Below are positions 51,806-54,463 of a DNA stretch of 64,000 nucleotides, in pieces. Made by a program: the position numbers and the translations under genes. The stretch covers positions 62,001 to 126,000 of the forward strand of contig JACPQY010000060.1 of assembly GCA_016190245.1 (NCBI GenBank). Reading direction: 5' to 3'. Source of the stretch: Nitrospirota bacterium. GTDB lineage: Bacteria > JACPQY01. Positions within the stretch are counted from its first letter, which is position 1; the number at the start of each line of letters is the position of its first letter. The notes beneath the pieces are model-generated. The model had not been told where the DNA came from, searched no databases, and saw only the letters and a program-made list of their open reading frames with translations.

Positions 51806-54463
51806 ATGAAAGAAATCGGAGAAGCTTATTCGGACAAGACGATTTGGCACATTCCCCCTCTCGTGGAGAAGCGGCACGGCGATACCTTCACATTTCTCGA
51901 CCCGGAAGGCCCCAACTGGATCTCGACCGACGCGCGTGGTGCGAGCATTCTGCGTCTGGTCGATGGAAAGATCTCGTTCGCCGAACTGGTCCGGCGCTAC
52001 TCCGAGCATTCAGGCACGGCGATGGCTCTCGCCTGGACACATTGTTTCACCTTTCTGAAGGATGCCGCTCGGGCCGGGCTCGCCGGCCGTCAACCGTTTT
52101 CTAGCAGGCAAGCCTACGAGGGCCGAGCCGCCATCATCGAGCCGGCACTCCGGGAGATTTGGATTCATACGAACAATTCCTGCAATCTTGCGTGTGCCCA
52201 TTGCCTTGTGAGCTCCGGACCCAAGGAGGACAAGGGGCTTGCACTGGACCAGTGGAAAGGCATCTTGGCGCAAGCTTTCGATCTTGGCGCCAGGCAGGTC
52301 TATTTCACCGGTGGCGAGCCGTTCGTTCGGAAGGACATCTTCGACTTGATCGACACCGTCCTGGCCGATCCGGGGCGTAGGCTCGTGATCCTGACCAACG
52401 GGATGCTACTGAAGGGGAGGATTCTCGAACGGCTGAAGGACTATTCAAGACGGCCTCTCACCCTCCAGATCAGTCTGGACGGACCGGATGCGGGGACGAA
52501 CGATCCGATTCGAGGCAAGGGGAGTTTCGAGCCCATCGTCCACGGCATCCGGGCTGGGCTCGACGCAGGTTTCCAGCCGATCGTCACCACCGTTGTAAAC
52601 GAATCGAATCGGCGAAAGGTGGCGGGGGTGACCCGTCTGCTGGGCTCGCTGGGCGTGAAGAGTCACCACCTGCTTTGGCCTCATCTGCGTGGGCGCGCGG
52701 CGATGCTCAATGGAAACTTCACGCTGACGGCCGAGAAGTGCCTGGACGTGTTGCTGGAGGCTCGCGAGGCGGGGCGCGAGGCGGGTGTTGCAGTGGACAA
52801 CTTCGAGTCCTTCCGAGCCCGAATCAGCGGTCGGCGGTTCGTCAGGATGGACCTGACCGGGGCCGGTGTCGAAAGCCTTTGCGTGTATTCGGATGGCCGA
52901 GTGTTCCCGTCCGCCTCGACGGCCGGCTACGCGAACCTATCGTGTGGCAATGCGCTTGAACTGCCCCTGTCGTCCATCTGGGAGAGCGCGAGGGTCCTCG
53001 CCGAGGCGAGACAGGCATCTGTGAAGGACAAGGTGATATGTCGTTCCTGCGAGTGGCGCTACATCTGCGGCGGAGGCGAGATCGAGCACGCATATGCCTA
53101 TTCGCAGAACGGCAAGGCCCGTGCCGCCTACGTGGGGTTCATGGAACACGACCCCTTCTGTGGTCTCTACAAAGGAGCGCTGGAGCGGATTCTTGTGGAG
53201 GAGTCCAAACCAAGGGGCCCTCTCAACAGGACGAGCGGGTTCAACTCGCCCGTGGTGTTTCGTTCGATGGGGGACTCCATCCTCTGCGGGCGGGAATCCG
53301 AACTGACGCGAGGCCGAAACGGCGTGGCCGTGGGTCATTCGTCTTGCCACTTGTCTGTGGACATCGCCCATCTTCGGGAAGACGTGCGGAACTACTACGC
53401 CGAGGCCGCCAAGGAGCCTCAGGAGGCTCTTTGCTGCCCGGTGAAATACGATTCCTCGGAGCTGAGCCACATCCCGAAGGACGTTATCGACCGATTCTAC
53501 GGATGTGGCGGTCCCGTCGCCGCGGCACGGATCAAGGAGGGGGAGGTTGTCGTGGATTTCGGCAGCGGAGCGGGCATCGATTGTTTCATTGCCGCGCGGA
53601 AGGTCGGTTCCTCGGGCGGAGTGATCGGCGTGGACATGACCGACGAGATGCTCGCGGTCGCTGAGCGGTGCAAGGCCGAAGTGGCCGGGCGGCTCGGGTA
53701 CGACGTGGTCGAATTCCGAAAGGGCTTCCTCGAGGAAGTGCCCGTCCCCGACGCCACAGCCGACCTCGTCATGTCCAACTGCGTGGTGAATCTCTCGCCG
53801 GACAAGCGGAAAGTTTTCGCGGAGATGTGGCGCATTCTGAAGGACCATGGGCGCGTGGTGATCTCGGATATCGTCGCCGACAAGGCCGTTCCCTTGGACA
53901 TGCAGCGAGACGTGGAGCTTCGGGGCGCCTGCATCAGCGGTGCGCTGACGGAAGAGGAGTTCCTCGCCTATCTCGAGCGTGCGGGATTCTATGGGTTGCG
54001 ATTGATCGATAGGAAGCCTTGGAAGGAGGTCGAGGGTAGTCGCTTCTCCTCGGTCACGGTGGAAGGATACAAGTTCGAGAAGAAGGCGGGCTGCACCTAC
54101 ATCGGTCAGCGGGTGGTCTACTCCGGTCCGTTCAAGGCCGTGATCGACGAGGAAGGGCACCTCTTTCCGCGAAACGAGCCGGTCGAAGTCTGCACCGACA
54201 CGGCGGCCAAGCTCAGACATTCGCCGTATTCCGGAACATTTGTCGTGTTGGAACCAGATGGCTCAGAGGCCGAATCACCGTCCGGCGAGATCCTGTCCGA
54301 AAACCCTAACCCCGACCCTTCCGCCAAAGGCGGATTCCCTCTCCTCGAAGAGGACCTGCCCGTCCGCCGAGGCGGACAGGCGGGGAGGGATAGGGTGAGG
54401 AATTCTGAAGCCCTCGACTCGGGCTCTAGGATAGGCGCTAAGTGCGGTCCGGGTTGCTGCTGA
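51806..54463 (+). CDS. PqqD-like / radical SAM / SPASM / ArsM-like methyltransferase fusion protein
   Basis: WIHTNNSCNLACAHCLVSSGP (CxxxCxxC); SPASM-like CRSCEWRYICGGGEIEH...FCGLY; VVDFGSGAGIDCFIAARKVG...VVNLSPDKRKVFAEMWRILKDHGRVVISDI; ends GAKCGPGCC. Confidence 0.88.
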   Translation: MKEIGEAYSDKTIWHIPPLVEKRHGDTFTFLDPEGPNWISTDARGASILRLVDGKISFAELVRRYSEHSGTAMALAWTHCFTFLKDAARAGLAGRQPFSSRQAYEGRAAIIEPALREIWIHTNNSCNLACAHCLVSSGPKEDKGLALDQWKGILAQAFDLGARQVYFTGGEPFVRKDIFDLIDTVLADPGRRLVILTNGMLLKGRILERLKDYSRRPLTLQISLDGPDAGTNDPIRGKGSFEPIVHGIRAGLDAGFQPIVTTVVNESNRRKVAGVTRLLGSLGVKSHHLLWPHLRGRAAMLNGNFTLTAEKCLDVLLEAREAGREAGVAVDNFESFRARISGRRFVRMDLTGAGVESLCVYSDGRVFPSASTAGYANLSCGNALELPLSSIWESARVLAEARQASVKDKVICRSCEWRYICGGGEIEHAYAYSQNGKARAAYVGFMEHDPFCGLYKGALERILVEESKPRGPLNRTSGFNSPVVFRSMGDSILCGRESELTRGRNGVAVGHSSCHLSVDIAHLREDVRNYYAEAAKEPQEALCCPVKYDSSELSHIPKDVIDRFYGCGGPVAAARIKEGEVVVDFGSGAGIDCFIAARKVGSSGGVIGVDMTDEMLAVAERCKAEVAGRLGYDVVEFRKGFLEEVPVPDATADLVMSNCVVNLSPDKRKVFAEMWRILKDHGRVVISDIVADKAVPLDMQRDVELRGACISGALTEEEFLAYLERAGFYGLRLIDRKPWKEVEGSRFSSVTVEGYKFEKKAGCTYIGQRVVYSGPFKAVIDEEGHLFPRNEPVEVCTDTAAKLRHSPYSGTFVVLEPDGSEAESPSGEILSENPNPDPSAKGGFPLLEEDLPVRRGGQAGRDRVRNSEALDSGSRIGAKCGPGCC
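54302..54411 (+). repeat. Palindromic repeat (same family as 8706-8815) inside the radical SAM fusion CDS
   Basis: CCCTAACCCCGACCC...CCCTCTCCTCG...GGGATAGGGTGAGG with hairpins at 54320-54334 and 54363-54376. Confidence 0.75.

Follow-up and report, generated by a model that had tools for sequence, protein, structure and literature searches.

We propose that the palindromic element found near the C-terminus of a radical SAM / methyltransferase fusion gene of this Nitrospirota bacterium belongs to a non-coding, dispersed family of multi-hairpin repeats, which spread in the lineage and was retained either between genes or in frame in flexible linkers and tails, a reading to which we assign a probability of about 0.85. 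In the window (i.e., the whole stretch of 64,000 nucleotides that was analysed), the element is built of nested inverted repeats, the terminal pair enclosing one small and one large G+C-rich hairpin (Table 1). The RNA fold of its single strand (z = -3.8) was equalled in stability by none of 200 shuffled sequences, which bears out the palindrome marked at this place in the first-pass annotation.

Table 1. Positions of the element, its parts, its host genes and the related features discussed in the text (window coordinates unless a contig or locus is named).
Feature	Position	Strand	Remark
Host gene, radical SAM / methyltransferase fusion, 885 aa	51806..54463	+	domain matches
Palindromic element, multi-hairpin, 110 nt	54302..54411	+	codons 833-869 of the radical SAM fusion gene
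Left terminal inverted arm ACCCTAACCC	54303..54312	+	partner 54387-54396, 90% complementary
Small hairpin	arms 54320-54325/54329-54334
Main G+C-rich hairpin CCTGCCCGTCCGCC/GGCGGACAGGCGGG	54355..54384	+	arms 54355-54368/54371-54384; core common to most copies
Right terminal arm and GGGTGAGG end	54387..54400	+
Terminal CGPGCC codons, conserved	54443..54460	+	downstream of the element, same frame
Host gene of second copy, O6-methylguanine-DNA methyltransferase (Ogt/MGMT type)	8601..9203	+	PF01035
Divergent second element copy	8708..8814 (approx.)	+	inside the Ogt ORF
Palindrome of the Omnitrophota homologue	L066 5518-5598		unrelated to the element; peptide ...LIPASAGMT...
Eight Y1_Tnp genes, ~280-340 codons	own genome (G000), contigs C13, C22, C28, C68, C74, C79 (two), C81; loci L150-L157		own inverted ends in most

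Besides its radical SAM and methyltransferase domains, the fusion protein shows a sub-threshold SPASM match, and the element encodes about 37 residues of its C-terminal tail in the frame of the gene. This is the sole stop-free forward frame of the copy and the CGPGCC motif persists beyond the element, both as first annotated. The homologue from a genome of the same family (72% identical) has a tail 41 residues shorter, which is devoid of the element and ends with the same CGPGCC (...FVVLEAEENAKTLAFEIAETAAAESERCGPGCC). A Cys-rich C-terminal motif of this kind occurs in most homologues of the fusion, from many phyla, the last two Cys being at least 90% conserved among 28 aligned sequences. With this conserved end placed beyond the element in the gene frame, the case for read-through is strong, and ribosomes very probably translate across the element. 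In the AlphaFold model (mean pLDDT of 83), residues 828-885 fall below 50, a low value that is partly expected for an insert without aligned relatives, and the tail carrying the element is predicted to be disordered.

The search of the bacterium's own genome assembly (3.29 Mb in 86 contigs, about 85% complete) returned 48 matches, weak ones included; together with motif searches and manual curation, these led to a census of about 29 element loci, a curated list that may be biased. The copies measure about 70-130 nt, and most of them combine inverted terminal repeats, CCTCACCC on one side and GGGTGAGG on the other, with a CCTGCCCG...GGCGGGGAGG core, while the interiors are variable mosaics. With one family member as query and a limited number of candidates scored, no match at E <= 0.001 was found in 40 other genomes, the same-family one included. 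Likewise, no element match was found among phage records for the queries tried, nor among viral contigs for two exact patterns, and in the comparison of the window with known RNA families only a tRNA reached threshold, the element matching none. The window also harbors a second dispersed repeat family (21496-21636, 49364-49504 and 38861-38891; 141 nt, 84% identity between two copies), with inverted ends like TCGCAATGAC...GTCATTGCGA, as well as repeated GGCGTAGCCCCGCC...GGCGGGGCACCTGAATGG units at 49569-50034, around a tRNA gene (49638-49711).

A pair of conserved inverted ends (CCTCACCC/GGGTGAGG) with variable sequence between them is also what one would expect of a MITE, that is, an internally deleted insertion sequence moved via its inverted ends by an unseen DDE transposase. 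We consider this origin rather unlikely: no target-site duplication above chance was detected in 15 copies, whose borders are uncertain, 429 of 500 shuffled flanks scoring as high. It is improbable as well that a Y1 (HUH) tyrosine transposase moves the element in trans, as in the REP/RAYT systems, a proposal that would in any case address movement and not in-frame insertion. The element is indeed hairpin-rich, dispersed and mostly intergenic, and one of the eight Y1_Tnp genes of the genome has element copies within about 250 bp, on one side; yet the flanks read for the seven others contain none, and wherever the ends of the Y1 loci are visible, they are of the GGGGTCA or GGGACGTT type. The link to these transposases is therefore unsupported.

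The reading frames place the family in frame in at least five protein genes, encoding the radical SAM fusion, Ogt, an ABC exporter, GlnE and a MoxR-type ATPase, and homologues without the insertion, which the first-pass annotation had proposed to align, were found for all five. In the ABC exporter, the element makes up residues 371-400, between the ABC_membrane (57-321) and ABC_tran ATPase (431-574) domains, and the homologue of genome G001 lacks exactly 30 residues between these two domains. In GlnE, it accounts for residues 80-119, and the conserved blocks on either side stand about 35 residues closer together in the G001 protein. In the MoxR-type ATPase, it corresponds to residues 192-235, which separate the AAA domain from its lid; because no homologue was found in either G001 or G030, RavA was taken as comparator, and it aligns on both sides of the insert with about 39 residues fewer. 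The Ogt protein of G001 is about 21 residues shorter at the insert site. As this gap is smaller than the element (about 36 residues), the insertion is not the only change in that linker. Probable further in-gene cases are a short element copy in an acyl-CoA dehydrogenase, a copy in an HNH-repeat protein, copy e4 at the C-terminus of an FAD oxidoreductase, and copies in N-terminal parts of a TatD protein and of a PLP enzyme. At locus L024 (G000:C16:28760-30286), a copy lies right where a TatD-radical SAM fusion gene begins and may supply its start codon. That the element lies in broken or truncated genes, with an open frame through it by mere chance, seems highly improbable: a G+C-rich element is open by chance in about four of six frames, but the radical SAM fusion gene runs unbroken for 885 codons up to the terminal Cys motif of its family, and the ABC, MoxR, GlnE and Ogt genes keep homologous sequence on both sides of the insert in one frame.

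In total, 6 to 10 of 28 copies lie in genes, far fewer than random placement would give (P < 1e-8) at the coding share of about 85% that a crude gene caller found for the window. Copies e7, e10, e12, e16 and e27 were counted as intergenic, as the frames that cover them begin upstream of the likely start codon, judged from sequence. Such a deficit would arise if insertions in genes were purged, or if the element favored intergenic DNA. It is worth mentioning that a near-identical direct repeat, CGGCCATGAAGCG[C/T]TTC, stands on either side of copy e10 (L009, G000:C12:8190-8370); this repeat takes in the likely start of a mlaD-like gene and is possibly a duplication.

The genome-wide count of placements and frames, suggested at the outset as a check, also bears on the idea that the element enters genes in one frame. 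The second copy reported in the Ogt-like gene is a true relative of the first: their local alignment scores 40, and the best of 500 dinucleotide shuffles reached 27. The two peptides do not correspond codon for codon as had been claimed; they count 27 and 28 residues and their middles differ, and the ends of the two copies share a frame because one copy is longer by a single codon. Counted from the GGGTGAGG end, the radical SAM and Ogt copies (probably also e6 and that of the PLP enzyme) use one forward frame, and those of the ABC exporter and GlnE (probably also the acyl-CoA dehydrogenase and e4) use the other, while the MoxR and TatD copies are read from the opposite strand. Hence the single frame holds for the pair first noticed but fails as a rule. 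The third forward phase meets a TGA within GGGTGAGG; with only two forward frames escaping it, two copies sharing one of them is roughly a coin toss. We also rejected the possibility that the element avoids stop codons, as 108 of 168 frames were open across 28 elements, compared with 116.7 +/- 5.0 in shuffles, and composition alone accounts for this openness. With both usable phases occupied and openness no higher than in shuffles, the shared frame provides no evidence of coding selection. It is scarcely credible that the element is a coding unit under selection for the peptide of a single frame: the radical SAM and Ogt copies both contain PLL.E and R.RV..SEA and four in-gene copies use their frame, but at least as many lie in another frame or strand and open frames are not enriched. 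Elements being no more stop-free than shuffles, their tolerance stems from G+C-rich composition and survival in linkers, and not from coding design.

Taken together, the history we favor for this non-coding repeat would have unfolded as follows. The repeat would have spread by transposition after the split from the nearest relative compared; insertions that broke genes were presumably purged, and those that were kept, possibly neutral, would be the ones lying between genes or, within flexible linkers and tails, keeping the reading frame. In the radical SAM fusion, translation of the element would yield about 37 residues of the disordered tail, and the protein would end at the conserved CGPGCC. 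The first description of a protein-tolerated mobile palindrome stands as regards dispersal, in-frame position, homologues without the insert and a conserved end beyond it, but its mobility is something we infer from the dispersal and the empty sites in homologues. The same tail offers a parallel: ahead of the CGPGCC of an Omnitrophota homologue (L066), the frame runs through another, different palindrome, GTCATCCCCGC...GCGGGAATGAC (fold z = -3.05), a single case which suggests that the tail of the fusion tolerates unrelated repeats.

Among known systems, the closest in behavior are the Rickettsia palindromic elements (RPE), hairpin-forming repeats that sit in frame in conserved proteins and leave the reading frame intact (Ogata et al. 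2000 and 2002, via PMC2229807, PMC10969869 and PMC3767692). RPE of 105-146 bp occur in and between genes, and one enzyme bearing an insert is active (PMC2229807); in R. japonica, the same gene sites hold different RPE groups in different species (PMC3767692). In its behavior, the present family matches this kind: a dispersed hairpin palindrome close to the RPE size (~100-150 bp), in and between genes, and in frame in conserved genes whose homologues lack the insert. It differs as a G+C-rich mosaic in an unrelated, free-living-type genome. REPs are found inside ORFs in several species, and the intragenic REPs/BIMEs of the GTAG and CGTC superfamilies are likewise dispersed palindromes, mostly intergenic and some wholly inside ORFs; they are, however, made of 20-40 bp units with GTAG or CGTC tags, often with RAYT genes (PMC3733652), whereas the present element has CCTCACCC/GGGTGAGG ends, distinct from those of the Y1 genes of its genome. 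MITEs such as ERIC, the Correia 107-bp element and YPAL are also small non-autonomous repeats with inverted ends, some forming in-frame gene fusions (PMC2229807), but most have target-site duplications, and none was detected here.

In-frame insertion of palindromes, for which Rickettsia is the best-known case, is found here in an uncultured G+C-rich lineage as well, and the homologues of five genes show the empty sites; our analysis also shows that two copies in one frame need no coding design. For work on the tolerance of proteins to added sequence, the copies offer a natural series of linker insertions. It is tempting, if doubtful, to imagine that unrelated hairpin repeats generally find landing places in the linkers and tails of bacterial proteins, far beyond Rickettsiales; if so, as the different in-frame palindrome in the Omnitrophota tail would imply, new linker sequence would arise recurrently through the insertion of repeats.
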